Origin: Nonlabens ulvanivorans
Lineage (GTDB): Bacteria; Bacteroidota; Bacteroidia; Flavobacteriales; Flavobacteriaceae
Direction of reading: 5' to 3'
Assembly: GCF_000732625.1 (NCBI RefSeq)
Contig: NZ_JPJI01000032.1
Location: 806,001-870,000 of the forward strand
Length of the DNA stretch: 64,000 bases
In this document: positions 2,304 to 56,754 of the stretch, piece after piece
Position numbering within the stretch: position 1 is the first letter of the stretch
Layout of the letters: each line of letters begins with the position of its first letter
Made by a program: the position numbers and the translations under genes
Notes under the pieces: generated by a model
Databases searched by the model: none
Seen by the model: only the letters and a program-made list of their open reading frames with translations
What the model was told of the DNA's origin: nothing

Positions 2304-3164
2304 ATGAAAAATAAGATTTTTGTTATCAGTATAATGGCCTTTATGAGTTTCGCTTTCGCGAAAGCGCAAGGAGGAACTAGAGGTATTAGAGTAGGTTTCA
2401 TTGATATGGAATATATTCTCGAGAATGTGCCAGAATATCAAAAAGCATCTCAACAGCTAGAGCAAAAGATGGGTAAATGGAAGCAAGAAATTGATGCCAT
2501 GAGTCTAGAAGTACAACAAATGAAAGATGCTTTACAAAATGAAAGAGTCTTACTTACTAATGAGCTTATTGAAGAAAAAGAAGAAGATATTAAGATAAAA
2601 GAAGAAGAGCTTTTAAACTATCAACAAAAAAGATTTGGTCCTCAAGGTGATTTTGTTTTACAAAAAGAACAATTAATACAACCAGTACAAGATCAAGTTT
2701 TTAATGAAATACGTAAGATAGGAAGCCTTAAGAAATATGATTACATACTTGATAGTTCTGAGGCAGCAATGCTTTATAATGCAGAGCGTCATGATTTAAG
2801 TGATCAAGTTTTAAAAGCGATAGGAAGAACTGCAAAAATCGATTCTAGAAATAGAGGTAATGACAAAAAACCTACTAAAGAAGAATTGAGAGAACAAGAG
2901 AAAGAAGAACGTTACTTGTCTGTAGAAGAGGCAGAAACTGTAGAGAAAAAAGAAGAAGCAAAGGAACAACTAGTAAATGATAGAGAAAAGGCACGTCTAG
3001 AGAAGTTAAGAGTGCGTGACTCTATCAAAGCAGCCAGAGCTGCAAAGTTTCAAAAGCGTAGAGATAGTATCATCGAGGCTAGAGAGAGACGCAAGGATAG
3101 TATACTAAAAGCACGTGAAGAAAAGAAGAAGGCTAATCAAAAAACGCCTCCAGGCGGTGAATAA
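2304..3164 (+). CDS. OmpH/Skp-family periplasmic chaperone with charged C-terminal extension
   Basis: Predicted periplasmic holdase that escorts unfolded outer-membrane proteins to BamA. The signal peptide is residues 1-21, ending in AFAKA before Gln; that end is encoded by a copy of the GCTTTCGCGAAAGC palindrome. The OmpH core follows (starting near VGFIDMEYILENVPEYQKA) with a long coiled coil and the family's KYDYILDSSEAAML motif. After about residue 180 there is a ~100-residue tail almost entirely of Lys, Glu, Arg and Asp, absent from the 176-residue paralogue next door. It starts 36 bases after bamA and is probably co-transcribed with it. The extended tail is unusual for Skp (about 160 residues in E. 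coli); its role is unknown. Confidence 0.88.
   Translation: MKNKIFVISIMAFMSFAFAKAQGGTRGIRVGFIDMEYILENVPEYQKASQQLEQKMGKWKQEIDAMSLEVQQMKDALQNERVLLTNELIEEKEEDIKIKEEELLNYQQKRFGPQGDFVLQKEQLIQPVQDQVFNEIRKIGSLKKYDYILDSSEAAMLYNAERHDLSDQVLKAIGRTAKIDSRNRGNDKKPTKEELREQEKEERYLSVEEAETVEKKEEAKEQLVNDREKARLEKLRVRDSIKAARAAKFQKRRDSIIEARERRKDSILKAREEKKKANQKTPPGGE
2351..2366. repeat. GCTTTCGCGAAAGC palindrome, copy 1
   Basis: Exact core with symmetric C/G flanks (16-base perfect palindrome), encoding the AFAKA end of the OmpH-like signal peptide. Confidence 0.95.
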
Positions 3165-3178
3165 TAACACGATACCAT

Positions 3179-3186
3179 TATATTTG
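3179..3186 (+). promoter_or_regulatory. -7 promoter box (TATATTTG) for the second ompH
   Basis: Exact match to the Bacteroidetes -7 consensus TAnnTTTG, 49 bases before the ATG at 3236. No convincing TTG is visible at the -33 spacing, so this is a partial match. Confidence 0.4.
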
Positions 3187-3235
3187 CAGCCGCATTAATA
3201 GAAGTTAAAGCAAAACAATAATTAATAATTAGAAA

Positions 3236-3766: not shown

Positions 3767-3781
3767 TTAACTAATACTTAT

Positions 3782-3816
3782 AAAAAAACCGCTTGGTACA
3801 TCTAAGCGGTTTTTTT
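3782..3816 (+). terminator. Intrinsic terminator after the bamA-ompH cluster
   Basis: 13-base arms (AAAAAAACCGCTT / AAGCGGTTTTTTT) enclose a 9-base loop and end in a T tract. The position is just after the second ompH stop and before murI. Confidence 0.85.
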
Positions 3817-3853
3817 ATGCGTTAAATTCTGGTAATCACATTATCTTTATGTC

Positions 3854-5373: not shown

Positions 5374-5383
5374 AGAGCATTTT

Positions 5384-7729
5384 TTAATTAGAAACAATCA
5401 TTTTAACGGTGACTGCAGTCCCTATGTCTGGAGATAGGCCAGCATCATTTACTATCATTTCAATCTGGCAATCGTGCAATTCATTTAGTAATGCTACTCT
5501 GTTCATGACGTTGCCCAGGCCTTTACTTTCTCGTTTCTTTTGGTGTTCTGTTTTGAGCTCTTTGGACTTAGCTCTTCCTATTCCGTTGTCAGTTATGGTA
5601 ACGATGATTTCGTTTTCTGCTTTCGCGAAAGCTACCTTTAAAAAGCCTTTCTCATCCTTATATCTCAATCCATGCCATACTGCATTTTCTATAATGGGCT
5701 GCAATAACATAGGTGGAACTTGTAAGGATGTACCTTCCAGTAATGGATCTACTATAAATTCATAATCAAACTTATCTTTAAATCGCTCGTGTTCTAGTTT
5801 GAGGTAAAGACCTAACAGTTCAGTTTCTTTTTCTAGTGGTATAAAATCTAATTCTGAATTCTCGAGAACACTGCGCATGAGCTTAGAAAAGTCTGCTAGA
5901 TATTTATTTGCAGCACGTTCATCATTCATTGCGATATAACTATTTACAGAATTAAGTGCATTAAAAATAAAATGTGGATTCATCTGGCTGCGCAGTGATT
6001 TGAGCGCTAATAAATGGTTATTAATGCGTTGCTGTTTATTGTTGCGCCACATAAAATATGCGAGAGAAATCAATAAAAGACTTAAGGCAACCAGTGAGTA
6101 GATGATCCAGCGTTGTCGATTGTTAACCTGTTGGGTTAATTCACGCTCTGTATTAATTAGAGCGATTCTATTTTCTGTAAGTTCCCGATCTTTCTCAAGT
6201 GTTAAAATACGAGTTTGTCTATTTACTAAATCTTGTGCTTTACGAGTGTTTAAAGCTATTTCTTGTTCTTTTTGCTCATAAAGTCGGTCAACAGTTTCAA
6301 TGTAAATCTCATTATATTTTAATGATTTTGCCGTGTTACCATTGGTGCGATAAAGTTTATAAAGATTACGCGCAGCCTCTTTTTTAGTATCTAGATCATC
6401 ATTTGCACTAGCTTCCTTAAAACTGTTTTCAAAAGAAGCGATTGCTTCTACAAAATTATTTGTGGCTTTATAGGCTTCAGCAATTTTAAGTTGTTCTTTT
6501 TGTTTTGAGTATGCGGTTGTGACGTTATCCACAGGTGTATCTATAGGCGCGCCCACTTCTAGATCTTCCATAATGGTATCTTCCATCTCTATAATATTAC
6601 TAGAGCTAGGTGTCTCAAGGTTAGTTACCGTCGCCTTTCTTTTTGCAGTACTAGCTTTATCAATAAGTTCGATATTTTTTTTACGCAAAGCAATTTCTTT
6701 ATCGTATTGTTGATTGCTATTATAAAAATCTGCAGTGGCAGATTGTGTGACCACATTACTTATAATTCCTTCATTTTTTGAATCTTGAATGGCGTTACTA
6801 TAATAAGACTCTGCAGTAGTGACTTGTCCTGTTGCATTATAAACATTTGCAATATTAGTGTTGAGTTGTGGTAATAATGCTTTTAAATTATTTGTCTGTG
6901 CAGTTTGTAAAGCTGCTTTATGATTTTTAAGCGCTGCCTCGGTATTGTTAGTTATTTCATAGATATTTCCTAATGTTGTATATGCAGTTACTATTTGTTG
7001 AGTGGATAGTCCTGTACTGCGGTTAGAAGACGTTTTTATTGATCTTTCATTAACAGTAAGAGCTTCCAGTATTTTGATCGCTTCTTGATAATTACCGTTG
7101 CTTTGTAGTGATTGGCCAAGTTTGAGTTGTCTTTGTGCTGTGTTTTCAGACTTAATCGCGGCTCTATAATTGGTAATCGCTAGGTCTGCTTGTTTGTTGA
7201 AAATGTATAAATCACCTAATGTTTCATAAGCACGAGCCTCTTTGCTAGTACTAATGCCACTAGAATTATTAGATAAAGCAGCAATTAAAAAGTCTGCCGT
7301 TTTTTGTGCATCCTTTTTAAGATAAACTTGGGCGCTATCCATTAACACTTCATAGCTCAATGATTTAAGGCGCTCTTTTTGTGAGAGGTCATCGATAACT
7401 TGAATCTCAATTTTATCATAACTTCTTATCGTATAATAAACAGTCTCAAAATCAGATCTCCTAATGATAATTTCATCACCTAGATTTGCTGGTATTTTAA
7501 AATAGCCTTGTAAATCTGTGGTTGCATATCGTCCCATAGGCCCTTCAATATTAACGCCAGATACAGGTTGTTTTTTATCGCTAATCACGCGTCCTTCTAG
7601 AACCATAGTGGTGCGTTCACTATTGGTCTTACGTGACTCATTACTTTGCGCCATAACCGTAGAGGTTAGACCCAAGGATAAAATTATATATAAGATTATT
7701 GCTCTCATTTCGGTTGTAAACTTAGGCAT
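5384..7729 (-). CDS. LytS-type sensor histidine kinase with CarboxypepD_reg and TPR sensor region
   Basis: Membrane sensor kinase, 781 residues, partner of the LytTR regulator downstream. In order: signal peptide (to about residue 28, MAQS); a CarboxypepD_reg-like beta-sandwich (about 40-110, GRVISDKKQPVSGVNIEGP); TPR-like helical repeats to about residue 500; a transmembrane helix (about 540-560, WIIYSLVALSLLLISLAYFM); a His_kinase domain with the phospho-accepting His in SQMNPHFIFNALNS; and a HATPase_c domain (IIENAVWHGL, ITDNGIGRAKS, KGLGNVMNRV). The palindromic element at 5619-5632 encodes VAFAKAE inside the ATPase domain. An alternative start is the Met eight residues in (7708), which gives a more typical signal peptide. 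Confidence 0.9.
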   Translation of the reverse strand: MPKFTTEMRAIILYIILSLGLTSTVMAQSNESRKTNSERTTMVLEGRVISDKKQPVSGVNIEGPMGRYATTDLQGYFKIPANLGDEIIIRRSDFETVYYTIRSYDKIEIQVIDDLSQKERLKSLSYEVLMDSAQVYLKKDAQKTADFLIAALSNNSSGISTSKEARAYETLGDLYIFNKQADLAITNYRAAIKSENTAQRQLKLGQSLQSNGNYQEAIKILEALTVNERSIKTSSNRSTGLSTQQIVTAYTTLGNIYEITNNTEAALKNHKAALQTAQTNNLKALLPQLNTNIANVYNATGQVTTAESYYSNAIQDSKNEGIISNVVTQSATADFYNSNQQYDKEIALRKKNIELIDKASTAKRKATVTNLETPSSSNIIEMEDTIMEDLEVGAPIDTPVDNVTTAYSKQKEQLKIAEAYKATNNFVEAIASFENSFKEASANDDLDTKKEAARNLYKLYRTNGNTAKSLKYNEIYIETVDRLYEQKEQEIALNTRKAQDLVNRQTRILTLEKDRELTENRIALINTERELTQQVNNRQRWIIYSLVALSLLLISLAYFMWRNNKQQRINNHLLALKSLRSQMNPHFIFNALNSVNSYIAMNDERAANKYLADFSKLMRSVLENSELDFIPLEKETELLGLYLKLEHERFKDKFDYEFIVDPLLEGTSLQVPPMLLQPIIENAVWHGLRYKDEKGFLKVAFAKAENEIIVTITDNGIGRAKSKELKTEHQKKRESKGLGNVMNRVALLNELHDCQIEMIVNDAGLSPDIGTAVTVKMIVSN
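5619..5632. repeat. GCTTTCGCGAAAGC palindrome, copy 2
   Basis: Exact 14-base core inside the histidine kinase gene, read as AFAKA in the ATPase domain. Confidence 0.95.
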
Positions 7730-10140: not shown

Positions 10141-10184
10141 AGGTTGTTTTATCGCGCTTTCGCGAAAGCGTAATAAAACAACCT
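10141..10184 (+). terminator. Terminator-like hairpin with the palindrome at its tip
   Basis: AGGTTGTTTTAT (10141-10152) pairs perfectly with ATAAAACAACCT (10173-10184), and a T run follows. The space between the arms is filled by the 16-base palindrome, so the structure can extend as one long hairpin. It lies directly after the VWA gene. Confidence 0.75.
10155..10170. repeat. GCTTTCGCGAAAGC palindrome, copy 3
   Basis: Exact 16-base palindrome in the spacer, nested within the terminator stem 10141-10184. Confidence 0.95.
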
Positions 10185-13004: not shown

Positions 13005-13076
13005 GCGAAAGTAGCTCAGGGGTAGAGCATCACCTTGCCAAGGTGGAGGTCGCGGGTTCAAATCCCGTCTTTCGCT
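13005..13076 (+). tRNA. tRNA-Gly (GCC anticodon)
   Basis: Cloverleaf is readable: acceptor GCGAAAG / CTTTCGC, D-arm with GCTCAGGGGTAGAGC, anticodon loop TTGCCAA (anticodon GCC), and T-arm CGGGTTCAAATCCCG. The CCA end is not encoded. It shares a promoter with the tRNA-Leu downstream. Confidence 0.95.
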
Positions 13077-13134: not shown

Positions 13135-13220
13135 GCTCGAGTGGTGGAATTGGTAGACACGTTGGACTTAAAATCCAATGGGTAGTAATGCCCGTACGGG
13201 TTCAAGTCCCGTCTCGAGTA
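13135..13220 (+). tRNA. tRNA-Leu (UAA anticodon)
   Basis: Class II tRNA with a long variable arm (GGGTAGTAATGCCC). Acceptor GCTCGAG pairs with CTCGAGT (first pair G-U). The anticodon stem-loop TTGGA CTTAAAA TCCAA gives UAA. T-arm is CGGGTTCAAGTCCCG. No encoded CCA. Confidence 0.95.
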
Positions 13221-16170: not shown

Positions 16171-19100
16171 TTATTTTTCAAGAGGTAATTCTAGCTTACG
16201 ATACCCATTACCATTTCCCATTCTACGATCTCGTAAGTTGGATTGCTTTTCTAAACGTTGCATGGTTTGGGGATTCTCTTCTGCATACCTCGGATCTTGA
16301 ATATAATCGGCCTTATGCATGTTGTGTACCTCAATAGAAAAGAAATCAAATTCTTCTACCACCTTACCATATATTTTATAGATTCCGCTTCCGCGAAAGC
16401 TGATCTTAGAGGCCACAGGAGGAAACATAACCGTATCGAAAAAGTCACCGTTAATGTCTAAAAACGTACCGAACTGCATGCGCTTGCCTTTAGCAGTATG
16501 AGTGGTTTTAATGTTTACAACATAGCCATACATTAATATCATTTTATTGTGATGTGCTATCATTTCTGTACGGCCGTAATGATTTTGAGGTGGCTCTAAC
16601 AGTAAATCAAAATGAGAGCACAAAGGAAACCCTAGAAGTTCTATTTGTTCATAAGCCATCTCTAAAGCGGTTGTGTGTAATCTGGGTATACTTGCTTTCT
16701 GATGCTCAGTAACAAATAATTTATTCTGTATATACTTTTGAGGTGACTTATCTAATTTAAAATGTGCGTGCCATAACAATTCATAGCGATCTATTCCTGT
16801 AAATCTAAAAGCATCTATGCGTATCAAAAGAGCTAATTGGTCAATGCTTATGAGTACTCGATCTATGAAATCTTCTAAGGATTTAAAAACTCCATTAAGA
16901 TGACGCGCCTCTATTATGCGTATCATAGTTTTTTTCTCTAGCTCTTTGAGATAGCTATAGCCCAGGTAGATACTAGTTCCTTTTATAGTATTAGCAATAT
17001 CGCTATGGTTAACACACGGTGATTCTATAGTTGCACCACACATCTTTGCTTCATGAACATAGAGCTCAGGCCTGTAAAAACCACCACCATTATTTAATGT
17101 GGCTACCATATACTCTAGTGGAAAGTATCTTTTAAGATAAAGACTTTGGTAACTTTCTACAGCATACGATGCAGAATGGCCTTTTGCAAAAGCATAACCA
17201 GCAAAACTCTTTATTTGATTCCAAATTTCTTGTGTCTGTTTAGGATCATGGCCTATATCGATACAGTTTTTAAAATACTTTTGTTCCACCTTTTGAAACT
17301 CTTCACGAGAACGATATTTTCCGCTCATTCCACGTCTCAATACATCTGCCTCAGCAAGATCTAGCTTTGCATAGTAGTGAGCAACCTTAATGACGTCTTC
17401 CTGATAGACCATAATACCATAAGTTTCTGGCATTATTTCTTGCATAATGGGATGTGCTTCTTTGCGCTTTTCAGGATAGCGTGTACGCAAAATAAACTCG
17501 CGCATCATACCACTTTGGGCTACACCTGGACGTATGACAGAACTTGCAGCAACCAGTCCTATATAATCATTAGTGGCTAGTTTGCTCAATAGCATTCTCA
17601 TCGCTGGTGATTCTATATAAAAACAACCTATGCATTTTGCTTGTGAGATCATGTTATTAATCTCTGGATCTAGCATAAATTTTTTCACATCGGTTTGTAG
17701 ATTTGCTATAGTCGCATCGGGTTGATTGTACTTAATGATCTCTATGCTATCACGTATTTTCCCTAGGCCACGCTGTGCTAGAATATCAAATTTGTGAATC
17801 CCAGCATCCTCAGCAATGTGCATATCAAATTGAACCGTACGATAACCTTTAGGCGGTAAACTGGTAGCACTGTAGTAATGAATAGGTTTTTCCGTGATTA
17901 AAATTCCGCCAGCGTGTATGCTTGTATAATTAGGCATGCCTTTTATTAAATGACTGTATTTTAATACCAGTTGGTGCATTTGATCTAGTTGCTCTAGTTG
18001 AAAATGGCCAGTGGTAAGCATATCTATATCTGTTTTAGGCAACCCAAAAACTTTACCTAATTCTCTTACTACTGCTCGATATTGAAAAGTATTATAAGTG
18101 GCTAGCAGCGCTACATTATTAAATTCATTGAATATAAAGCGTGTAATATCTTCTCTGTCGTCCCATGCAAAATCGATATCAAAATCTGGTGGACTGGTTC
18201 TATAGTCATTAATAAAACGTTCAAAGTATAGATCTAGTTCTATCGGATCAACCTCTGTGATTTTAAGTAAATAAGCTAAAATGCTATTTGCACCACTACC
18301 ACGACCTACATAAAAAAATCCTTTACTGCGAGCATATTCACAGATGCGCCAATTGATTAAAAAATATGCAACAAAACCTTTTTTATGGACTATACCTATT
18401 TCTTTTTCTATGCGCTCAATAACAACTGTCTTATCCTCTCTGTCTCCATATCTATCCTTAATGCCTTCATAAGCTAACTTTCTCAGTTTTGCATAATCTG
18501 CTTCTTTACTAGTGCTGTAGACTTGTTGATTTGCGTTAAGTTGTGCGTTTTCAAAATTGAAACTGACATGACATTGTGATAATAATTGTGTCGTGTTTTG
18601 AAGGATTATCGGATATTCTTTAAAAACTTTTTTTAATTGAGAAACTGGAATCATTTGTTGCTCAACATTACCTTGTTGCGACTCTGGTAGCTGACTCAAA
18701 AGAATATTTAGGTCTATACAGCGCAATAGGCGATGTGCGTTATAGTCTTTTTTAGACCTAAAACTTACTGTTTGCATCACAACCATTTTATCCAGCATGT
18801 TTACATAACTAGTAAATGGCATTTTACGTAATGTGGTTGTAGAGACACCTATGAATTCGCTTTCGCGAAAGCGAACTTTATCAAGCTCTATTACTTTATC
18901 AAACGGATATATAAGGTATACATTATCAAAGGCTGGTGGCTCTGAAGGAAATGGAATTTTATTTTCTAGATGATACGATAGAAAAGTATTAAGCTCTTGA
19001 AACCCATCATTGTTTTTTGCAATACCAACGTATTGTTGATGATGATTGTTTCTGAAATCTATACCTAGCACGCCATGTAGTTGATGTTGTGCACATAGTC

Positions 19101-22656: not shown

Positions 22657-22672
22657 CGCTTTCGCGGAAGCG
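22657..22672. repeat. Palindrome, copy 6 (one-base variant)
   Basis: CGCTTTCGCGGAAGCG with TT/AA flanks, in the spacer between the S24 repressor and the DUF2461 gene; one mismatch to the core. Confidence 0.85.
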
Positions 22673-27407: not shown

Positions 27408-28520
27408 ATGAAAGCAAAATTAAACATTCTTTTTATAGTGGTTTTTCTTTTTTCCGCTTTCGCGAAAGCGCAGTTAAAAACAGGTCACTGCTATTTTATA
27501 AATGCAGAGAATGGTTTGAATTTAAGAGAAGGACCAAGTGTGAATCATAAGATTGTTGGAAAATTTAGCTATGGCACTCAAGTGAAAGTTATTGAAAATG
27601 TTCCATCAGTAGGGAAGACTTTTGTGATAGGTAATGGCAAAAAAATACACGGAAGTTGGGTGCGTGTTGAACCTACATTTAATAGCGATTACTATAAAAA
27701 TACAAGATTATATCTTTTTGACGCTTATCTGAGCAAGCACCTGACTACAATCCCGCCACAAAGCCTTCATAACTTTGTAGAGCTTTATGATAGCGCGGCG
27801 CATGACGATTATAAACCTACTAAAGGTGTTTCTTCCAGAAGAGAAATGTGGGAAACAGGAACACATTGCGATGTGCGTTATGAATATAATCCAGCCGCAA
27901 AAGAAGCACTCAAAGATATTATTCAATTTGAAATAGTCAACCGAGAAGATTACATCAATAAAAAAATCATAGGGAACTATGAAATTGATACCTCTTGGCA
28001 ACCTAAGAAATTCAAATTAGAGAACGATTATCGACCTGTGGAATGGGAACAGTATTACTTGCCATTAAATGGTGGTAAAGATTCTGTTTTAATAAAAGAT
28101 AATCTGGGAGAATGGGCTTCAAAAACAGAGTACTACGGTCAGATTGATGAATTAGACAGCTATTTAATCTCAGGCTTTGCAGAAGATGCAGAGGTTATTC
28201 TTGTGAATCGCACCACTGGGAAAAGGTCTATGTTATCAAGTGGTTTTCCAACAATTTCCCCTAAAGGTGAATATCTTATAGCCGAGTATTACAACGGTTT
28301 TGACTACACCACTTATTTTACCGTCGGTGAGTTTGATGAAGAAGCCATACTGCAAGGAGCTTTTATCACTTTTTCTAGTTGGATTACAGCTGGTGAATTT
28401 TTCTGGATTGCAGAGAACGAATTTATAATGGGCGTGTTGCCTATGGATAATGTGACTCTATACGGCGAGGAGTTGAAAGATTCTAAGGTTATTTATTTAA
28501 AAGGAACCATTCAGTTTTAA
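27408..28520 (+). CDS. Secreted SH3-domain protein, tandem copy 1
   Basis: 370 residues. The signal peptide (residues 1-21) ends in AFAKA, encoded by a palindrome copy, and is cleaved before Gln. A bacterial SH3 (SH3b) domain follows at about 24-75 (AENGLNLREGPSVNHKIVG and YGTQVKVIE), a fold that binds peptidoglycan or peptides. The remaining ~290 residues are not recognised but align in outline with the next gene: LYLFDAYLSKHLTTIPPQSL here against YVFSAYLDYHLKEIPERSL there. It is probably periplasmic or on the outer surface. It starts 32 bases after the membrane-protein gene and ends three bases before its paralogue. Confidence 0.83.
   Translation: MKAKLNILFIVVFLFSAFAKAQLKTGHCYFINAENGLNLREGPSVNHKIVGKFSYGTQVKVIENVPSVGKTFVIGNGKKIHGSWVRVEPTFNSDYYKNTRLYLFDAYLSKHLTTIPPQSLHNFVELYDSAAHDDYKPTKGVSSRREMWETGTHCDVRYEYNPAAKEALKDIIQFEIVNREDYINKKIIGNYEIDTSWQPKKFKLENDYRPVEWEQYYLPLNGGKDSVLIKDNLGEWASKTEYYGQIDELDSYLISGFAEDAEVILVNRTTGKRSMLSSGFPTISPKGEYLIAEYYNGFDYTTYFTVGEFDEEAILQGAFITFSSWITAGEFFWIAENEFIMGVLPMDNVTLYGEELKDSKVIYLKGTIQF
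27455..27470. repeat. GCTTTCGCGAAAGC palindrome, copy 7
   Basis: Exact 16-base palindrome encoding the AFAKA end of the signal peptide of SH3 protein copy 1. Confidence 0.95.
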
Positions 28521-28523
28521 GGA

Positions 28524-29699
28524 ATGAGAATACTACTTACAGTTTTATTGTTTTTGAATTACGCTTTCGCGAAAGCGTATACCACACCATCTTACGATAA
28601 AGAGTGTATATACGTGATTGCAAAAAACGGTTTAAACATGCGTAATGCAGCTGGACCGCATGGTAATATTATTGAAAAACTTCCTTATGGAACTAAGCTA
28701 GACTGGTCACCGCCAGGATCAAATGATGTCAAGGAATATGTCGTAGACGATGGAAAGAAACTAGAAGGTTACTGGGTGAAAGTATGGCGCAGTGTGCCTT
28801 ATGAAGAACTTAAGGGCAATGCCGAAGGTTATGTTTTCAGTGCATATTTAGATTATCATCTTAAAGAGATTCCTGAACGCTCATTGTATCTGTACAATCA
28901 TTTCTCAATTCAAGAAGAGGAATCTCAGACCTATTTTGAATCGTCCTACCATATTGATAAAGATACCTACAATTATTCTGCTTATATAGATTGTTATCCT
29001 TGGTATGATGAGCACCATGGATATCATACTGCTCGTACTAATAGTGATGAATTTTATATATCACAACCGGCAGACACACTTCAAAATTTTATTAAACTAG
29101 AACTTGTCGAGTATAATAAAGTAATTAAGGAAAAGAAAAAAACAGATTTTGACTTGGATTACGGCTTTCAACCGAATTTGTTGTCCATTGAAAAGAGTGA
29201 AACAGAATTTGATTTTCTTAAGAAGTATTATCTGCCTCTAAAAAATGGTGATTCTGTTGAGGTTAAGGCGCATACTGGAGAGTTTCCTCATAACGTAGAA
29301 TATATGGGCGAGCTCAAAAAGCAAAACAAATATCTAATCGCTGCAGATTTTGAAGGTTTAGAATATGCGTGGATAGACCAATATACAGGAGAACGTATTA
29401 ATGGTGCTATTCCCAATATTTCTCCTGACAATAAATATGGAGTAAGTCACGAAGTGGTATATTATGAACAAGGTGCTCAAATAGCAATCAGCTGGCTGGA
29501 TGCCGATTTAAAAACAACTAAAAGCCTTTATGTAAACTTTCAATCTTGGGTTGTTAGTTCAAGTCTTAACGATTCTTTTTGGATATCAGATAATGAGATT
29601 ATTTTAATGGTACATCCTATTGATAATACCGTTCAAGAAGTTGACATGGATGAGCCTATCCAGCCACAGTGGCAATATTTGAAATTGACGATTCTGTAG
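28524..29699 (+). CDS. Secreted SH3-domain protein, tandem copy 2
   Basis: 391 residues, a diverged paralogue of the gene just upstream. The signal peptide (1-18) again ends in AFAKA from a palindrome copy, here in a different flanking context (LNYAFAKAYT). The SH3b domain is at about 25-85 (AKNGLNMRNAAGPHGNI and LPYGTKLDWS). The unknown C-terminal part shares the same layout, including repeated 'KYYLPLKNGDSV'-like and 'GELKKQNKYLIAADFEG'-like segments. Both genes are in one transcript. The pair likely arose by tandem duplication, and the palindrome is present in both signal peptides. Confidence 0.82.
   Translation: MRILLTVLLFLNYAFAKAYTTPSYDKECIYVIAKNGLNMRNAAGPHGNIIEKLPYGTKLDWSPPGSNDVKEYVVDDGKKLEGYWVKVWRSVPYEELKGNAEGYVFSAYLDYHLKEIPERSLYLYNHFSIQEEESQTYFESSYHIDKDTYNYSAYIDCYPWYDEHHGYHTARTNSDEFYISQPADTLQNFIKLELVEYNKVIKEKKKTDFDLDYGFQPNLLSIEKSETEFDFLKKYYLPLKNGDSVEVKAHTGEFPHNVEYMGELKKQNKYLIAADFEGLEYAWIDQYTGERINGAIPNISPDNKYGVSHEVVYYEQGAQIAISWLDADLKTTKSLYVNFQSWVVSSSLNDSFWISDNEIILMVHPIDNTVQEVDMDEPIQPQWQYLKLTIL
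28562..28577. repeat. GCTTTCGCGAAAGC palindrome, copy 8
   Basis: Exact core; perfect 20-base palindrome (28560-28579) with TA flanks, encoding the AFAKA end of the signal peptide of SH3 protein copy 2. Confidence 0.95.
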
Positions 29700-32468: not shown

Positions 32469-32484
32469 CGCTTTCGCGAAGGCT
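32469..32484. repeat. Palindrome, copy 9 (variant)
   Basis: CGCTTTCGCGAAGGCT: one mismatch in the right arm of the core, in the spacer between the ABC1 gene and the TetR gene. Confidence 0.8.
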
Positions 32485-33996: not shown

Positions 33997-35745
33997 ATGT
34001 ATAGATCACACGATTGTGGTAGCCTGCGCGCTAGCGATGTAAATAAAGAAGTAACACTGGCCGGTTGGGTTCAAAAAAGCCGTGATAAAGGTTTTATGGT
34101 TTGGGTGGATTTAAGAGACCGTTATGGCGTTACTCAATTAATCTTTGATGAAGAACGTACCGATAAAGCCTTGCTAGAAAGAGCGCAAAAACTAGGTCGT
34201 GAGTTTGTGATACAGGTTAAGGGTACCGTGATTGAACGTGAATCTAAAAATGCTAAAATGTCTACAGGTGATGTAGAGATTCTCGTAAAAGAATTGAACA
34301 TTTTAAGTGAGTCTAAAACGCCACCTTTTACCATAGAAGATAATACTGATGGTGGAGAAGAGTTGCGTATGAAGTATCGCTATCTAGACATACGTCGTAA
34401 TCCAGTGCGCGAGAACTTGATTTTCCGTTCTAAGGTTGCGATGGAAGTACGTAATTTTCTAGCCGGTAAAGATTTTATCGAGGTAGAAACGCCGGTACTT
34501 ATTAAATCGACGCCAGAAGGTGCTCGTGACTTTGTCGTGCCATCGCGTATGAATGAAGGGCAATTTTATGCCTTACCACAGTCGCCACAGACCTTTAAGC
34601 AACTGCTTATGGTAGGTGGAATGGATAAGTATTTCCAGATTGTAAAATGTTTCCGTGATGAAGACCTGCGTGCAGATCGTCAACCAGAGTTTACACAAAT
34701 AGACTGCGAGATGTCATTTGTAGAGCAAGAAGATGTGTTGAATATATTTGAGGACATGACACGTCACTTATTGAAAAAGGTAAAGAACATCGATGTTGCA
34801 GATTTCCCTCGCATGACTTATGAAGATGCGATGAAGAAATATGGTAATGATAAACCAGATATCCGTTTTGGGATGGAGTTTGGTGAGTTAGACGCTTTCG
34901 CGAAAGCGAAGGACTTCAAAATCTTTAACGAGGCAGAATTAGTTGTGGGAATAGCAGTTCCCGGTGCTAATAGTTACACGAGAAAAGAAATTGATAAATT
35001 AATTGATTGGGTAAGACGTCCACAAGTTGGTGCGCTAGGAATGGTTTATGTGCGTTGTAATGAAGACGGAACGTATAAGTCTAGCGTTGATAAGTTTTAT
35101 GACCAAGAAGATCTTGCAAACTGGGCAAAAGCTACTGGTGCAAAAGCTGGTGATTTAATTTGCGTATTGTCTGGTCCTGCAAATAAGACTAGAACACAGT
35201 TAAGTGCTTTAAGAATGGAAATGGCTGAGCGTCTAGGATTACGTGATCCAGAAGTATTTGCACCATTATGGGTTGTAGATTTCCCGCTATTAGAATGGGA
35301 TGAAGACACAGAGCGCTATCACGCGATGCATCATCCATTTACTTCTCCTAAACCAGAAGACATTGATAAGTTAGAAACAGATCCAGGTAATGTGCGTGCA
35401 AACGCTTACGATCTTGTGATGAATGGTAATGAGATAGGTGGTGGATCAGTAAGAATATTTGATAAGAAATTACAGGCATTAATGTTTGACCATTTAGGAT
35501 TCACACCAGATGAGGCAAGAGCCCAGTTTGGTTTCTTGATGGACGCCTTTGAATATGGTGCGCCACCACATGCAGGATTAGCATTTGGATTTGATAGATT
35601 AGTTTCTATCCTAGGTGGACAAGAAACGATACGTGACTTTATTGCTTTTCCTAAGAACAATAGTGGTCGCGATGTAATGATCGATGCACCTAGTGCAATT
35701 GATCAAGAGCAGTTAACAGAGTTAAACTTGAAGGTTACGTTATAA
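33997..35745 (+). CDS. aspS: Aspartyl-tRNA synthetase
   Basis: Charges tRNA-Asp. 582 residues, full bacterial length. N-terminal OB-fold anticodon domain ([26 protein letters not shown]), class II catalytic domain with motif 1 around [15 protein letters not shown], motif 2 [18 protein letters not shown], the GAD-type insertion domain, and motif 3 ([14 protein letters not shown]). The start is 33997: the ATG 12 bases earlier runs into a stop. A palindrome copy (34893-34908) is read as DAFAKAKDF in the insertion domain, which tolerates sequence variation. Confidence 0.97.
34893..34908. repeat. GCTTTCGCGAAAGC palindrome, copy 10
   Basis: Exact 16-base palindrome inside aspS, read as AFAKA in the insertion domain. 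Confidence 0.95.
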
Positions 35746-37680: not shown

Positions 37681-39450
37681 ATGTCTCAAACACTACTTTC
37701 TCAAATCAACTCACCTGCCGACTTAAAAGGTCTAGATGAAAATGAGTTACCGCAAATTGCTCAAGAATTGCGCGATTTTATTATTGAGGTAGTAGCTACT
37801 AAAGAAGGTCATTTAGGTGCAAGTCTAGGAGTTGTCGAGCTCACCATTGCGTTACACTATGTGTTTGATACGCCAGAAGATTTACTGGTTTGGGATGTAG
37901 GTCATCAGGCTTATGGCCATAAAATATTGACAGGTAGGCGAGATGTTTTTCGTACGAACAGAGACTTGAACGGTATCTCTGGATTTCCTAAAAGAGATGA
38001 AAGTGTTTATGACACCTTTGGAGTAGGTCACAGTTCTACTTCTATCAGTGCTGCGCTAGGAATGGCGATGGCTAGCCAGTTGAGAGGAATCGACAGAAAA
38101 CACATTGCTGTAGTAGGTGATGCTAGTATTGCCAGCGGTATGGCATTTGAAGCGCTCAATCATGCAGGAGTAAGCGATGCAGATTTATTGGTGATTCTCA
38201 ACGATAATGCTATCGGAATAGATCCTGCCGTAGGCGCATTAAAAGATTACCTTACTAAGACCAAATCTGGTAAAGAAACAGGTCGCGATAATATATTTGA
38301 ATCGTTAAATTTTGATTATTCTGGTCCTATCGATGGGCATGACTTACCACTTTTATTAAAAGAACTAAAAAGACAAAAATCTCTTAAAGGTCCACGATTA
38401 CTCCACGTAAGAACCACCAAAGGGAAAGGTCTCAAACAGGCAGAAATTGATCAAGTACGCTATCACGCGCCCGGTAAATTTGATAAAATTACAGGTGATA
38501 TCACACCAGCAGATACGAGTTTATTGCCACCTAAGTTTCAAGAAGTTTTTGGAAATACCATTGTAGAACTTGCTGAGCAAAACGAGAATATCATAGGGAT
38601 CACGCCAGCCATGCCTACTGGAAGTTCCATGAAGATCATGATGAATGCTATGCCTGATCGTGCATTTGATGTCGGAATTGCAGAGCAGCACGCCGTAACA
38701 CTTGCGGCAGGAATGGCTACACAAGGATTAGTTCCTTTTTGTAATATTTATTCTACTTTTTTACAACGCGCCTATGATCAAGTTATTCATGATGTAGCAT
38801 TACAAAAATTACCTGTTGTTTTCTGTCTGGATCGTGCAGGTTTAGTAGGTCAGGATGGAGCGACTCACCATGGTAATTTTGATCTTGCTTATTTAAATTG
38901 TATTCCAGATTTAATTATTGCTGCGCCTATGGATGCCATCGAGTTAAGGAATATGATGTATACCGCGCAATTAGGTCTTGAGTTACCTATAGCGATCAGG
39001 TATCCTCGTGGTCGTGGTCGTATATTGAACTGGCAACAACCTTTTCAGAAACTACCAATTGGTCAGTCTCGTGTGATTCATTTAGGTACTAAGATCGCTG
39101 TTCTTTCTATAGGTTCTATAGGAGCAATGATAGATGATTTAATCAGTGATGAAGAACTTGATGTCACTCATGTAGATATGCGTTTCTTAAAACCGTTTGA
39201 CCACGATATGTTAGATGATATTTTTGAGCAGCACGAGCACATTATCACTATAGAAGATGGAACCATTATAGGTGGATTAGGCAGTATGGTAGTAGATTAC
39301 GCTTCCGCGAAAGCGTATAAAAACAACATCTATAAACTAGGAATCCCAGATGTATTTATACAACATGGCCCCACAAAAGACCTGCATAAAATAGCTGGAA
39401 TTGATAGTGAGACCGTATATAATTTAATCAGTGATTTATCTACTCGATAA
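37681..39450 (+). CDS. dxs: 1-deoxy-D-xylulose-5-phosphate synthase
   Basis: First enzyme of the MEP isoprenoid pathway: condenses pyruvate and glyceraldehyde-3-phosphate using thiamine diphosphate. 589 residues, slightly shorter than the usual ~620. Motifs: VWDVGHQAYGHKILTGR, FGVGHSSTSISAALGMA, the TPP-binding GDASIASGMAFEALNHAG, and the pyrimidine-domain FDVGIAEQHAVTLAAGMA. The variant palindrome at 39300-39315 is read as YASAKAYK near the C-terminus. The end overlaps the convergent T9SS gene by 11 bases. It fits with the polyprenyl synthase at 57.5 kb. Confidence 0.96.
   Translation: MSQTLLSQINSPADLKGLDENELPQIAQELRDFIIEVVATKEGHLGASLGVVELTIALHYVFDTPEDLLVWDVGHQAYGHKILTGRRDVFRTNRDLNGISGFPKRDESVYDTFGVGHSSTSISAALGMAMASQLRGIDRKHIAVVGDASIASGMAFEALNHAGVSDADLLVILNDNAIGIDPAVGALKDYLTKTKSGKETGRDNIFESLNFDYSGPIDGHDLPLLLKELKRQKSLKGPRLLHVRTTKGKGLKQAEIDQVRYHAPGKFDKITGDITPADTSLLPPKFQEVFGNTIVELAEQNENIIGITPAMPTGSSMKIMMNAMPDRAFDVGIAEQHAVTLAAGMATQGLVPFCNIYSTFLQRAYDQVIHDVALQKLPVVFCLDRAGLVGQDGATHHGNFDLAYLNCIPDLIIAAPMDAIELRNMMYTAQLGLELPIAIRYPRGRGRILNWQQPFQKLPIGQSRVIHLGTKIAVLSIGSIGAMIDDLISDEELDVTHVDMRFLKPFDHDMLDDIFEQHEHIITIEDGTIIGGLGSMVVDYASAKAYKNNIYKLGIPDVFIQHGPTKDLHKIAGIDSETVYNLISDLSTR
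39300..39315. repeat. Palindrome, copy 11 (one-base variant)
   Basis: CGCTTCCGCGAAAGCG, one mismatch to the core, inside dxs; read as ASAKA. Confidence 0.85.
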
Positions 39451-42311: not shown

Positions 42312-43646
42312 TTATTTAATAGATCCATTGATAACACTGAAGAGTTGTAGTGCTCTACTATCAGTTAATGAAGCCACATAACCACACGCATTTAAGATAC
42401 GCTCATATAGCGATGACGTGTTTTTTTGCAATCCAGAGCAAGTGTTCAAAATAAGTTTATCATAAATCGATTTATTATCTTCTAGATCATTTACAGTTGC
42501 TGTGATTACCGCATGCAGTATATCTGTCAATATTTTATAGCCAGCGATTTCTTTTTGGATCACTTCTTCATTACGATATACCTTTTCTATAGTAATCGCA
42601 AGAATATCATCTATTTGTGGTTTGAACTGGGACTTATCAGTTAGGGCATGTTTATAAGTGCCATTAAGAATTGTTTCTTCATTATTCATAAATACATCTA
42701 CACAATCAGTAATCAGGTTATTGATAGCTAGTGACCTTAGGTAGGTTAATCTTTCTGCGGTAGAGGTTAATTGTGAGTAGACTTCTGACTTAATATTCTT
42801 GCGCACCAAATTAATTAGGTATTCCAAAGCAAAATCTTCAGGAATCCAACCTAGATTAATTCCGTCTTCAAAGTCTATGATAGTGTAGCAAATATCATCT
42901 GCAGCTTCAACCAGATAGGTGAGTGGATGACGCATGTATGGTTCCATGCTAGAGTCATTATTTTTAATTCCTAACTCTTGAGCGACATCTTTAAAGTGTT
43001 CTAGATCTGCTTGAAAAACACCAAATTTCTTTTGGGATATGTGATTAGTCGGCTTTAATGGTAAAGATTCTTTAGGGTATTTTGTAAAAGCGCCTAAAGT
43101 GGCATACGACAATCTTAAGCCGCCAGGAGTTCCTGGAGAATCTAGATTAAGTAGTCGGTATCCATTTGCGTTTCCTTCATAATCGATGAGGTCTTGTTGT
43201 TGCTTTCGCGAAAGCGAATCCATAAAAACCTTTCCTTTACCACTTGAGAAGTAACTACCTATAGCATTCTCTCCACTATGACCGAATGGTGGATTACCGA
43301 TATCATGCGCTAATGATGCAGCGGCAACGATGGCACCAAAATCCTGCATTTTATATCCTGCTTCTACTAATGATGGGTGCTTTTCTAATATGCGTTGTCC
43401 GGCCATACGACCTAAGGAACGACCTACTACAGATACTTCTAGACTGTGCGTTAATCTAGTGTGTACAAAGCCAGTCTGGCTTAATGGGATGACCTGTGTT
43501 TTATCTTGCAGACTACGGAAATGTTGTGAGAATATCACTCGGTCATAGTCTACTTCAAAACCTAGTCGTAATTCATCTTGTAATTTTCTAGGTCTAGGTG
43601 CTGTGTCGCCGTGTCTTTTTAAGGATAGTAGGTTTTCCCAATTCAT
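42312..43646 (-). CDS. dgt: Deoxyguanosinetriphosphate triphosphohydrolase (dGTPase)
   Basis: 444 residues. HD-domain enzyme that splits dGTP to deoxyguanosine and triphosphate. Motifs: FRSLQDKTQV, RLTHSLEVSVVG, and the HD metal site SLAHDIGNPPFGHSGE, plus the later VEAADDICYTIID. The palindrome at 43202-43215 is read as DSLSRKQ, the third possible frame of the element, in a loop. The start is ATG 43646, divergent from the TonB receptor gene. Confidence 0.93.
   Translation of the reverse strand: MNWENLLSLKRHGDTAPRPRKLQDELRLGFEVDYDRVIFSQHFRSLQDKTQVIPLSQTGFVHTRLTHSLEVSVVGRSLGRMAGQRILEKHPSLVEAGYKMQDFGAIVAAASLAHDIGNPPFGHSGENAIGSYFSSGKGKVFMDSLSRKQQQDLIDYEGNANGYRLLNLDSPGTPGGLRLSYATLGAFTKYPKESLPLKPTNHISQKKFGVFQADLEHFKDVAQELGIKNNDSSMEPYMRHPLTYLVEAADDICYTIIDFEDGINLGWIPEDFALEYLINLVRKNIKSEVYSQLTSTAERLTYLRSLAINNLITDCVDVFMNNEETILNGTYKHALTDKSQFKPQIDDILAITIEKVYRNEEVIQKEIAGYKILTDILHAVITATVNDLEDNKSIYDKLILNTCSGLQKNTSSLYERILNACGYVASLTDSRALQLFSVINGSIK
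43202..43215. repeat. GCTTTCGCGAAAGC palindrome, copy 12
   Basis: Exact core in dgt, read as LSRK, a different frame from AFAKA. Confidence 0.95.
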
Positions 43647-47993: not shown

Positions 47994-48009
47994 CGCTTTC
48001 GCGAAAGCG
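47994..48009. repeat. GCTTTCGCGAAAGC palindrome, copy 13
   Basis: Exact 16-base palindrome in the spacer between the lipoprotein and the PiT transporter gene. Confidence 0.95.
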
Positions 48010-50412: not shown

Positions 50413-50643
50413 TGTTTCATCAAGAAATAACAATCACTTTCACCTACTACAATAGCTTTTCTATGCGGTAAGGTAAATTGGAGTACGCTTTCGCGAAAGC
50501 GTAACATGAGTAGCTAAAAGAGTTGTTTGCATCAGGTTTAGAGCATTTGTCTTCTTTAAATAAACATGTTATTTATGATCTGAAAAACGGAATGTAATTG
50601 CATTCTATCCAAGTCATTAGTAGCTTAAGCAATGACACAAAAA
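50413..50643. other. Gene-free spacer between convergent units
   Basis: The 338-base gap 50361-50698 contains the PiT terminator, one palindrome copy (50486-50501) and the efflux-operon terminator. The rest has no open frame of note, no RNA motif and no promoter match that I can see. Confidence 0.6.
50486..50501. repeat. GCTTTCGCGAAAGC palindrome, copy 14
   Basis: Exact core, extended to a 20-base perfect palindrome with TA flanks (50484-50503), in a gene-free spacer. Confidence 0.95.
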
Positions 50644-54199: not shown

Positions 54200-54201
54200 G
54201 A

Positions 54202-55359
54202 TTAAGAGTTTTTAATGTCTATTAATTGTCCTTCTCTTACGGTACGTGCACCTTCAGTAATTACTTGATCACCTATTTTAAGCCCTTCAGTTATTTCTAT
54301 TAGGTCACCGCTAGCTTTACCTGTAGTTACTTTACGTCTTATCGCTTGTACTCCATCTTCAGACTCATTAACAATCATTACATATTGTTCACCTTCTTGA
54401 TTTTCACTGATGACACTCAATGGTACTAGAATAGCGTTTTCAGAGGTGTAGTCATTAATTTTCAATCTTGCAGTAAGATTAGGCTTAATATTTCCTGTTT
54501 TGTTATCTACAGGAATCTCAATAGAAAATGAACGATTTGCAGGATTAATGTAACTACTGGTCTGTCTAATCGTACTTTCTGTTTTTTCAGATAATACAGG
54601 GAATTCTACCGTTACTTCAGTACCTTTTTTAATTGATGTAATATACGTTTCTGGTACATCAACATTGATGTACATATCTTTCAAAGAAACTAATCTGAAT
54701 AAGGCAGTCATACCAGGACTTACCACATTACCTTGCTCTGTAATGACATCATCTATAGTACCAGCAAAAGGAGCTCTAACGGTAGTTTTAGATAAAGTAC
54801 GTTGCATAGAACTTATAGCTTTACTTTGTCCTTCATAATTAGCTTTTGCCTGCAAAAATTGGATTTCAGAACCTATGTTTTGATCCCATAATCTTTTTTG
54901 ACGCTCAAAAGTGGTCTTAGCAAGCTGTTCTTGTACTTGCATTTGTTGAATCTGTTGTGATAATCCTCCATCATCTATTTTAGCAAGAATTTGCCCAGCG
55001 ACAACCTTCTGTCCTTCTTTTACATATACCTGCGTTAACAATCCAGACATCTCTGGCATTATGGTGATGTTTTGTTTAGTGTCAACACTACCTTGAAGTT
55101 CTATAAAATGATCAAATAGAGTGTCTTTTACAATCATCGTACTTACCTGTGTATTGATAGGCTTATCACCATGCTCGTTTTGATAATCTTGTATTTTTTT
55201 TAGAGTTTCGTCGATAGACGCTTTTTGATTATTTAGCTCTGTCTTCTTTGCTGCGATTGCTTTTTCATCACCTTGCGCTAGTAGCTCGTCTATAGAAGGA
55301 GATTTACCACCACAAGAAACGATAAGTGCTGTTGTAAGTATGATTAATATTTTTTTCAT
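54202..55359 (-). CDS. RND efflux periplasmic adaptor (membrane fusion protein)
   Basis: 385 residues. Lipoprotein signal with Cys16 (LIVSCGG). An N-terminal coiled coil and a biotinyl-lipoyl-like hairpin (LLTQVYVKEGQKVVAGQILAK) are followed by beta-barrel and membrane-proximal domains (TTGKASGDLIEITEGLKIGD). It bridges the RND permease and the TolC channel. It lies two bases upstream of the permease gene, in one operon. Standard HlyD/AcrA family layout. Confidence 0.93.
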   Translation of the reverse strand: MKKILIILTTALIVSCGGKSPSIDELLAQGDEKAIAAKKTELNNQKASIDETLKKIQDYQNEHGDKPINTQVSTMIVKDTLFDHFIELQGSVDTKQNITIMPEMSGLLTQVYVKEGQKVVAGQILAKIDDGGLSQQIQQMQVQEQLAKTTFERQKRLWDQNIGSEIQFLQAKANYEGQSKAISSMQRTLSKTTVRAPFAGTIDDVITEQGNVVSPGMTALFRLVSLKDMYINVDVPETYITSIKKGTEVTVEFPVLSEKTESTIRQTSSYINPANRSFSIEIPVDNKTGNIKPNLTARLKINDYTSENAILVPLSVISENQEGEQYVMIVNESEDGVQAIRRKVTTGKASGDLIEITEGLKIGDQVITEGARTVREGQLIDIKNS

Positions 55360-55383
55360 GATAAGAATGTTCAGTGGTGAAAT

Positions 55384-56754
55384 TTAGTTTTTGGTTGTGT
55401 AATTGGGTAGGTTAAGTATGGTTTCCAGGTTTGCTTTTTCTGTAATTACTTGATACATACTATTCAGATACTCTGCTTGTGTGCTGTATAATTGAGTTTG
55501 TGCCTGTCTTAGGTCAAAACTAGTGGCGATTCCTTCTCTGAATTTTATGGTGTTTTTGTTCTCAATACGTTCTGCCAGTGCTAGATTATCTTTGCTAGTG
55601 GTATAATTATCAATCGCTGTTTGATAATTGTTTACTGCAGTAGCATAGTTAAGACGTATTTCTTCCATGGTGCGTTGTAAATCAGTCTCGGCTTGATCCC
55701 ATGCTATTTTAGTACGGTCCTGTGCTGCTTTTCTACCAAAAGAGCTGAAAATAGGTACGTTAATACTAACACCTGCTACCGATTGTTGATACCATGGTTG
55801 ATTGCTATTGAAAAATGAAAAATCACTATCAAAAGATTGGGTTCCATAATTGATAAAACCGCTCACTGTAGGTAACCCTTTTGCTAGTTCTAGTTTGTGT
55901 TCTAAGCGTCGTTGTTGCGTGTAATTATAAGCAATCTGGTAATCTACCGATTTATCCATTTCTAAAGATTCCTCAGTTACAGAAGGATCAATATTGCGCA
56001 TGGTTAATGCTTCAAGATCATCTGTTAGTGTAACAGGAGTTGAAAGTTCTATACCTAACGCTAGTTTTAACATGTCTAGCGCAATCTCTCGTTGTCTCTT
56101 TGCACTATTCAATTGATTATCTAGTTGAGATAGTGTGATCTGTAATTGTTCAACATCTTCTTCTTCGGCAAGTCCATTTTCAAAGATTTTAGTAGTCTCA
56201 TTTAAGTTTTTTTCAAGCGTATTGCGATTTTTAGTGATAATGTCTATGTTTTCTTCCGTGAGTAAAACACCGCCATAAGCATTGATGATTCCTTTTCTGA
56301 CTTCTAGTTTTGTCTTGTTATTTGCGTTTTCAGAAAAATCTAGAAAGGTTTTAGAAGCCTCTAAAGCAACGATATATGAACCGTCAAAAATCAATTGGGT
56401 TAATGTAGCTGTTAAAGTCATGTTTTGTCTAGGTCCAAAAACCACAGGTATAAAGGTGCCAGGAGTACCACCGGCAAGTTCTGCTGGTAAAGGTGTTACC
56501 GGTTGCTTCAATTGGTTTTGATAATCAATAGCACCATTGATTTGTGGTAGACCTGTTGCTGTGGTTTCCCATTTTTGTTTTAAAGCTTTAGCAACATCGC
56601 GTTTAGCATTAATAGATTGATAGTTGTTTTCTAATCCGTGCTCGATAGCCTGTTCCAAGGATAAGCTATAGCTGGATGGTGTAGTTTCTTGGCTGTACGC
56701 TTTCGCGAAAGCGAGACCAAAAAGCAATAATGTTATTTTAATTTTTAAGGGCAT
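55384..56754 (-). CDS. TolC-family outer-membrane efflux channel
   Basis: 456 residues. The signal peptide is residues 1-19; its end (LAFAKAYSQ) is encoded by a palindrome copy. The mature protein has the duplicated OEP domain with long helices (IEHGLENNYQSINAKRDVAK; FREGIATSFDLRQAQTQLY). It forms the outer-membrane exit duct of the pump. Directly follows the TetR gene with no gap, so translation may be coupled. Confidence 0.93.
   Translation of the reverse strand: MPLKIKITLLLFGLAFAKAYSQETTPSSYSLSLEQAIEHGLENNYQSINAKRDVAKALKQKWETTATGLPQINGAIDYQNQLKQPVTPLPAELAGGTPGTFIPVVFGPRQNMTLTATLTQLIFDGSYIVALEASKTFLDFSENANNKTKLEVRKGIINAYGGVLLTEENIDIITKNRNTLEKNLNETTKIFENGLAEEEDVEQLQITLSQLDNQLNSAKRQREIALDMLKLALGIELSTPVTLTDDLEALTMRNIDPSVTEESLEMDKSVDYQIAYNYTQQRRLEHKLELAKGLPTVSGFINYGTQSFDSDFSFFNSNQPWYQQSVAGVSINVPIFSSFGRKAAQDRTKIAWDQAETDLQRTMEEIRLNYATAVNNYQTAIDNYTTSKDNLALAERIENKNTIKFREGIATSFDLRQAQTQLYSTQAEYLNSMYQVITEKANLETILNLPNYTTKN
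56698..56713. repeat. GCTTTCGCGAAAGC palindrome, copy 15
   Basis: Exact 16-base palindrome encoding AFAKA at the end of the TolC-family signal peptide. Confidence 0.95.

Follow-up and report, generated by a model that had tools for sequence, protein, structure and literature searches.

Short repeated DNA elements of several kinds have been described in bacteria. HIP1 of cyanobacteria (GCGATCGC) is a palindrome iterated in coding and non-coding DNA, and the Rickettsia palindromic elements are palindromic DNA translated within proteins, where they stand as insertions. In known uptake systems the machinery includes an ATPase of the type IV pilus or pseudopilus kind, and the chromosomal sites of Noc, SlmA and MatP are confined to the origin or terminus domain. 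The uptake sequences of Pasteurellaceae and Neisseriaceae (USS and DUS), according to the portions available of PMC1939737, PMC7811141 and PMC2346458, occur in hundreds of evenly spaced copies with AT-rich flanks, arise by point mutation, are found in genes with a location bias within them, and are over-represented in non-coding DNA; they are not palindromes, as far as the available text of PMC1939737 goes. REP sequences are described as extragenic in the available parts of PMC2817692 and PMC3733652.

The element examined here is a 14-mer palindrome, GCTTTCGCGAAAGC, of Nonlabens ulvanivorans, followed up from a stretch of 64,000 nucleotides (the window). It resembles USS and DUS in copy number, even spacing, AT-rich flanks, origin by point mutation, presence in genes with a location bias, and non-coding excess; it differs from them in being palindromic, in belonging to Bacteroidota and in that most carriers are without a PF00437 ATPase, and its role in uptake is putative. 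Compared with HIP1 it is longer, has characteristic flanks, occurs about once per 4–8 kb and is independent of PF00145 and PF01555 methylases. Unlike the Rickettsia elements, most of its alignable copies replace existing codons without gaps. With REPs it shares short length, palindromy and high copy number, but 97 of 161 copies here lie inside called genes. The 14-mer was not found in the open-access literature searched, although papers beyond it, or using another name for the motif, could exist.

Occurrence and placement of the palindrome

The window contains 13 exact copies, and 17 when up to one mismatch is allowed, against a chance expectation of 0.02 for the latter (Table 1). An earlier note on this DNA had counted eleven genic copies, which is correct if one-mismatch copies are included (9 of the 13 exact and 2 of the 4 one-mismatch copies, at 16387 and 39301). 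The source genome (G000) has 566 copies and none of the reversed control; all 23 Nonlabens genomes carry the palindrome, with 288–857 copies each. Distribution is patchy; Nonlabens, Dokdonia and a third genus (G190) carry roughly one copy per 4 to 8 kb. Densities in the sampled stretches were near the whole-genome density in G000, a second Nonlabens (G307), G190 and Dokdonia G206.

Table 1. Secreted-protein genes and palindrome copies in the window
Feature	Position	Strand	Remarks
OmpH-like protein	2304..3164	+	PF03938 match
SH3_3 protein, first	27408..28520	+	PF08239 match
SH3_3 protein, second	28524..29699	+	PF08239 match
TolC-like outer-membrane efflux protein	55384..56754	-	OEP PF02321 match
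Exact copy, AFAKA frame, signal-peptide end of OmpH-like protein	2352..2365		A-K-A↓Q; element-free orthologues xxA↓Q at same position
Exact copy, AFAKA frame, signal-peptide end of first SH3_3 protein	27456..27469		A-K-A↓Q
Exact copy, AFAKA frame, signal-peptide end of second SH3_3 protein	28563..28576		A-K-A↓Y plausible
Exact copy, AFAKA frame, signal-peptide end of TolC-like channel gene (minus strand)	56699..56712		Likely cut A-Y-S↓Q, two residues past AFAKA
Exact copy, genic, AFAKA frame, internal	5619..5632		
Exact copy, genic, RFRES frame	18859..18872		
Exact copy, genic, AFAKA frame, internal	34894..34907		G087 and G190 orthologues without element, gap-free alignment
Exact copy, genic, LSRK frame	43202..43215		
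Exact copy, genic, AFAKA frame, internal	61859..61872		
Exact copy, intergenic	10156..10169		
Exact copy, intergenic	47995..48008		
Exact copy, intergenic	50487..50500		
Exact copy, intergenic	58806..58819		
One-mismatch copy, genic	16387..16400		
One-mismatch copy, intergenic	22658..22671		
One-mismatch copy, intergenic	32470..32483		
One-mismatch copy, genic	39301..39314		

As the earlier note had described, four exact copies (2352, 27456, 28563 and 56699) each read AFAKA immediately past the N-terminal hydrophobic segment. Its proposal that A-K-A is the triplet recognised for cleavage (↓) stood in part: judged from sequence, this cut is likely at 2352 and 27456 and plausible at 28563, and at 56699 the other cut given in Table 1 is likelier.

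Genome-wide placement was examined in 864 kb of the source genome, with junctions called automatically by a simple hydrophobicity rule for signal peptides that 1.24% of codons satisfy. Copies read in the AFAKA frame followed an N-terminal hydrophobic segment in 16 of 60 cases, compared with 0.74 expected (binomial p = 2.7e-17), and no copy met the rule among the 51 read in the remaining two frames (Fisher p = 1.8e-5 against the AFAKA frame). One of these 16, in the gene at sample position 110402, has the element past the likely cut, and two extra junction cases visible by eye (56106 and 159636 in the sample) fail the automatic rule. Genic copies are indeed placed non-randomly, as had been suspected, with enrichment at signal-peptide ends in the AFAKA frame only. 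Among AFAKA-frame copies elsewhere, 8/41 in G307 and 5/29 in G190 (one of which is spurious on inspection by eye) were at signal-peptide ends; in Dokdonia G206 the enrichment was weak (2/21, p = 0.035).

The junction copies showed the predicted features of Sec/SPase I signal peptides, namely a positive N-region, a hydrophobic stretch and small residues at -3 and -1. In Nonlabens, AFAKA↓Q (A-K-A↓Q) was the arrangement seen most often: in G000, Q directly followed AFAKA in 11 of 16 junction copies versus 2 of the 44 AFAKA copies elsewhere (Fisher p = 8e-7), and in G307 in 6 of 8 versus 0 of 33. None of the five junction copies of G190 had Q in this place, and four of them read AFAKA-x-A↓Q; outside Nonlabens, the cut at AFAKA junctions likely falls a few residues later. 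The palindrome is not a secretory element as such, since 60 of 161 copies are intergenic by a stricter count and most genic ones are internal.

Origin of the copies and junctions in element-free relatives

The copy in TolC was kept in 23 of 23 Nonlabens genomes and that in OmpH in 17 of 18 examined (own genome included in both), and TolC of G190 and of Dokdonia G206 was likewise element-bearing. Outside the genus, and as read by eye, element-free TolC N-termini had A↓Q or S↓Q in 17 of 18 cases and G↓Q in the remaining one, and element-free OmpH N-termini had A↓Q or S↓Q in 13 of 13. OmpH of Nonlabens G242 reads TFAQA↓Q instead of AFAKA↓Q, with DNA close but not identical to the palindrome. In the element-free relative G087, 44 positions stood in the exact A/S↓Q register, and 11% of them were AFAKA-like (BLOSUM62 score at least 8), compared with 1.1% elsewhere; these junctions are pre-adapted to AFAKA about tenfold.

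Alignments with G087 were gap-free in 11/11 (G190), 11/18 (G000) and 7/10 (G307) cases, a total of 29 of 39 alignable comparisons, some sites being shared by G000 and G307 and five more, at unaligned ends, standing outside the 39. The span checked covered the three residues preceding the element start and the seven following it. Some of the alignments, too, showed a junction of its own in the sequence lacking the element. Gaps at the element occurred in 7 of the 18 G000 and 3 of the 10 G307 alignments, one of them a clean five-residue gap, and some copies may therefore be insertions. For most alignable copies, accumulation by point mutation fits better than insertion. Versions with 0, 1 and 2 mismatches numbered 148, 27 and 13 against 0.0009, 0.043 and 1.0 expected, an over-representation that drops with the number of mismatches.

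The earlier note had held that the repeat supplies the export signal of these proteins, and had proposed comparing orthologues from species lacking the element to see whether the AKA end was gained. The comparison, made widely for TolC and OmpH, speaks against this: element-free orthologues already have a junction of their own in the same place. Together with the mostly gap-free alignments, these junctions indicate that the palindrome overwrote existing junctions and created no export signals.

Spacing was far more even than random. Its coefficient of variation was 0.45 in G000, compared with about 1.0 in simulations (lowest of 5000, 0.73), and the smallest gap was 1135 bp, below which 28 gaps were expected by chance. 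The values for G307, G190 and G206, given here without simulated counterparts, were 0.53, 0.71 and 0.53. The element has perfect dyad symmetry and a long symmetrical flank signature, C-poor on the left and G-poor on the right, in intergenic and every genic class.

Maintenance of the palindrome

We consider it probable that a double-stranded DNA recognition site, maintained genome-wide, overwrote pre-existing signal-peptide cleavage junctions that tolerate AFAKA. A genome-wide drive or selection would keep the palindrome at about one per 4 to 8 kb; most copies would originate as point substitutions in sequence already present, and they would persist in free DNA or at coding positions that can bear one of the palindrome's three translations without harm. 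Such a tolerant place would be the end of a Sec signal peptide, which is short, weakly constrained and already Ala-rich, and AFAKA would satisfy the small-x-small rule either as A-K-A↓Q or, with its last Ala at -3, as A-x-A/S↓Q. In those proteins the element would now be part of the cut site, with cleavage presumably at the bond named. We infer that tolerance is the reason for the placement; a junction that tolerates, and is pre-adapted to, a DNA site kept up for some other purpose fits better than creation of an export signal. A repeated DNA site would thus shape protein sequence at a predictable place, where its translation appears nearly neutral. The system is countable, each genome offering hundreds of sites and the carriers comprising 23 genomes of Nonlabens plus two other genera, and it lends itself to the question of how a proteome and a DNA signal spread over the whole genome accommodate each other.

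As to the nature of the site, the pattern tentatively fits best, by analogy, a DNA uptake sequence: competent cells would prefer palindrome-bearing DNA, and recombination would let copies accumulate through uptake-biased molecular drive. Copy number, even spacing, AT-rich flanks, point-mutation origin and non-coding excess are as in uptake sequences, so far as the accessible parts of PMC1939737 and PMC7811141 describe them. Among the sites listed for G302, a Nonlabens, the two longest intervals free of the element (the only two examined) contain a JetD/Wadjet-type cluster, RHS-repeat proteins and secretion genes, and are probably acquired DNA. All 12 genomes searched had the ComEC family (PF03772), element-free relatives equally among them. 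The type IV pilus or pseudopilus ATPase expected of an uptake machine was not found with the PF00437 profile in most carriers, scoring below cut-off in 20 of 23 Nonlabens (G000 included), Dokdonia G206 and G190. A type IV pilus or type II secretion machine as the common factor was rejected, the secretin and PF00437 ATPase of G302 being limited to the 3 of 23 Nonlabens above cut-off. No paper on competence in these genera was among the matches listed. We know of no palindromic uptake sequence, and a Bacteroidota palindrome serving uptake or self-recognition would be of a kind not known to us from elsewhere. The fuller account, similarly tentative, is that such a sequence spread through three Flavobacteriaceae lineages and rewrote signal-peptidase sites of many secreted proteins, settling at the same junction more than once, so that the proteome records a DNA-level drive. 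Of the roughly 254 genes of the 864-kb sample with a hydrophobic N-terminus, 16 carry the element at the junction, or approximately one-sixth of those with a Q-type junction. Were the site an uptake signal, genetic exchange among these Bacteroidota would become open to testing.

Equally conceivable, and just as tentative, is a protein-binding site: a protein that organises the chromosome or acts in replication or repair would require double-stranded sites spread evenly. The dyad and flank symmetry, the even spacing and the agreement of stretch densities with whole-genome densities favour it; the sampled densities, however, gave no hint of the restriction to an origin or terminus domain that Noc, SlmA and MatP sites show.

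Positive co-option, in which AFAKA improves the cleavage or export signal and selection therefore favours the element at signal-peptide ends, appears improbable. It could draw on the persistence of the TolC copy in Nonlabens, G190 and Dokdonia, and on a QCAMC protein whose same junction is occupied in two Nonlabens and G190 with registers six bases apart. The roughly tenfold pre-adaptation alone also falls short of the whole enrichment, so a positive benefit at junctions may exist. Against co-option, relatives' orthologues, including the TFAQA form of OmpH, have ordinary junctions, and conservation is general, 30 of 42 alignable copies being retained in G307. Moreover, the occupancy of junctions is, by our own arithmetic, similar to that of intergenic regions (58/442).

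A site tied to a DNA methyltransferase is very unlikely: the motif is palindromic and iterated like HIP1 (PMC4390886, in the part available), but dependence on methylases of families PF00145 and PF01555 was rejected, three Nonlabens without a match to either (G305, G307 and G242) still carrying 752, 563 and 664 copies. Insertion of a mobile palindrome of MITE or REP-like type at AT-rich sites, suggested by copy number, palindromic structure and the gapped minority of alignments, which remains, is the least credible reading and is largely refuted by the mostly gap-free alignments on element-free orthologues, the even spacing and the excess of one- and two-mismatch versions.

A terminator or promoter role was rejected, the 60 intergenic copies showing no bias (39 co-directional, 14 divergent and 7 convergent, against 58.5, 29.4 and 12.1% of intergenic bases). 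Attraction of the element to junctions through T-rich hydrophobic codons and A-rich mature N-termini resembling its flanks was likewise rejected; with a flank matrix from 50 intergenic copies, junctions did not score higher than internal coding positions (means -10.3 and -10.0, one-sided p = 0.999).

Repeat copies at signal-peptide ends

A pattern scan of the window for the palindrome, GCTTTCGCGAAAGC, gave 13 exact copies (nine genic and four intergenic) and four one-mismatch copies, with 0.02 matches of at most one mismatch expected by chance; the exact copies were first met as two-mismatch matches to a trial pattern. In each palindrome half, in the copy within the OmpH-like gene and in all exact copies, one strand carries GCGAAAGC, a sequence that would form an unusually stable DNA mini-hairpin. 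The flank signature, seen in intergenic copies and in every genic class, is symmetrical and extends approximately 18 bases, being faint beyond. In the four copies singled out by the earlier note, AFAKA was confirmed to lie directly at the end of the N-terminal hydrophobic segment, and the protein names proposed there agree with Pfam for all four.

Positions of the four named copies and of other features in the window
Feature	Position	Remark
Copy in OmpH-like protein	2352-2365	
tRNA gene	13005-13076	just before repeat ORF
tRNA gene	13135-13220	just before repeat ORF
148-aa ORF of imperfect 28-39 nt repeats	13372-13818	directly past the two tRNA genes
Copy in SH3_3 protein	27456	
Copy in SH3_3 protein	28563	
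Copy in TolC-like channel	56699	minus-strand gene

Sampled stretches, not whole genomes, were used for counting; that of the own genome was 864 kb with 161 copies. With genes called by a simple hexamer method, 111 copies were in ORFs or 5′ extensions thereof, reading AFAKA (60), RFRES (27) or LSRKR (24); by a stricter count, 97 of the 161 fell within called genes and 4 at gene edges, which left 60 intergenic. An automatic junction rule (start codon, basic residue, and hydrophobic 8-mer ending no more than 4 residues from the position) matched 16 of the 60 AFAKA copies vs. 0.74 expected and none of the 51 copies in the other two frames; gene finder and rule are both simple; the rule misses two clear junction cases, and of its matches across all samples no fewer than two are doubtful. 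The proposed enrichment of genic copies at signal-peptide ends was thereby borne out genome-wide, and cleavage at these sites would be predicted. Matches among AFAKA-frame copies were also found in a second Nonlabens, G307 (8/41), in G190 of another genus of the family (5/29, one plainly not a signal peptide), and in Dokdonia G206 (2/21).

Junctions in orthologues and residues after the element

Orthologue junctions were compared for TolC and OmpH. In TolC, the element was at the junction in all 23 Nonlabens genomes, own included, and absent in seven relatives from the same search, which had ordinary N-termini with endings such as ATA/Q and AFS/Q (slash, predicted cut); of 13 genomes examined in addition, G190 and G206 alone were carriers. 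In OmpH, besides the window copy, 16 of the 17 congeners examined (of 22) had the element, the exception, G242, ending in TFAQA/QR with DNA near the palindrome; 13 genomes of other genera, including G190 and G206, were all without it (e.g., AQA/QR and VSA/QR). Because element-free relatives have ordinary junctions, those of TolC and OmpH are independent of the element and, by parsimony, predate it. The claim that the repeat supplies the export signal was thus not supported for these two proteins. In G299, a TolC-like gene (contig C25) was interrupted by stops and split into two matches, possibly an assembly fault.

Q directly followed AFAKA in 11/16 junction copies vs. 2/44 others in the own genome, 6/8 vs. 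0/33 in G307, and 0/5 vs. 2/24 in G190, where four of the five junction copies read AFAKA-x-A/Q. Among element-free genes with a hydrophobic N-terminus, 76 of 238 had small-x-small/Q, so this is a usual junction type of the lineage.

Origin and persistence of copies

Element-bearing proteins were aligned to orthologues in 390 kb of G087, a near element-free relative. Alignments were gap-free near the element at 11/11 (G190), 11/18 (own genome) and 7/10 (G307) alignable sites, with 1, 3 and 1 further sites, respectively, at unaligned ends. One alignment had a clean five-residue gap at the element; insertion is therefore possible at some sites. One- and two-mismatch versions were over-represented, to a falling degree. 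Sites were kept in G307 for 30 of 42 alignable own-genome sites, and for 29 of 47 in the reverse direction.

In G087, AFAKA-like residues occurred at 11% of the 44 positions in the exact register (A or S, then the cut, then Q) vs. 1.1% elsewhere (approximately tenfold), with 8.7 vs. 10.2 DNA mismatches to the element. By arithmetic from the sample, the element occupies some 12 to 16 of approximately 90 Q-type junctions; counted against all genes with a hydrophobic N-terminus (about 254), the figure is 16. Such occupancy is of the same order as that of intergenic regions of at least 40 bp (58/442). At one junction, in a QCAMC-containing protein, the element lies one base from the Q codon in the own genome and G307, and seven in G190; these differing registers suggest separate arrivals. 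The idea that flank composition itself suits signal peptides failed its test.

Distribution and nature of the element

The own genome (3.21 Mb) had 566 copies (reversed control, 0), and the 23 Nonlabens genomes, this one included, had 288 to 857 each. Copies were spaced far more evenly than random. Among 299 family genomes, 61 had at least one copy, and more than 19 outside the genus were found only in G190 (408) and G206 (857). Among the matches listed were 80 named loci, and the 12 with one copy or more came from Nonlabens, strain BBFL7, Dokdonia and a single Cytophagaceae MAG. The first approximately 30 TolC residues are identical between G301 and BBFL7 and between G206 and Dokdonia sinensis, which is the basis of the genus names used here. 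In a BamA tree of 20 rows, carriers require three state changes, two forced by well-supported branches, so that the element was either gained repeatedly or gained and later lost in some lineages. The 16-mer was in 11 of 395 genomes of a phylum sample, more than twice only in the own genome.

Uptake sequences are described as evenly spaced, with AT-rich flanks, point-mutation origin and excess outside genes (PMC1939737, PMC7811141) and biased location within genes (PMC2346458). The element fits this pattern, its even spacing and flank signature matching the description; however, because it is palindromic and most carriers have no PF00437 ATPase that passes the cut-off, a DNA uptake sequence is a possible but doubtful reading, about as likely as a structural DNA-binding site. 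ComEC is present in carriers and likewise in non-carriers. The signal-peptide conclusion holds whichever reading is right.

All five exact copies of G087 lie in one 30-kb stretch (C1:2535001-2565000; GC 0.396 vs. 0.34), in genes resembling by eye a P-type ATPase, a Fur-like regulator and TolC-like channels; the stretch may be an island received from a donor that carries the element. G101, G078, G215 and G087 each have two copies separated by 933 bp. In another Nonlabens (G302:C4:297001-353000), two element-free stretches hold JetD with an SbcC-like ATPase (Wadjet-type), a STAND-like NTPase, RHS-repeat proteins, a secretin and a T2SSE ATPase, the last above cut-off in 3/23 Nonlabens and in G215. 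The 16-mer was also found in 41 stretches of viral contigs, with several copies on some contigs; these may come from phages that infect carriers, or from bacteria whose DNA was mislabelled.
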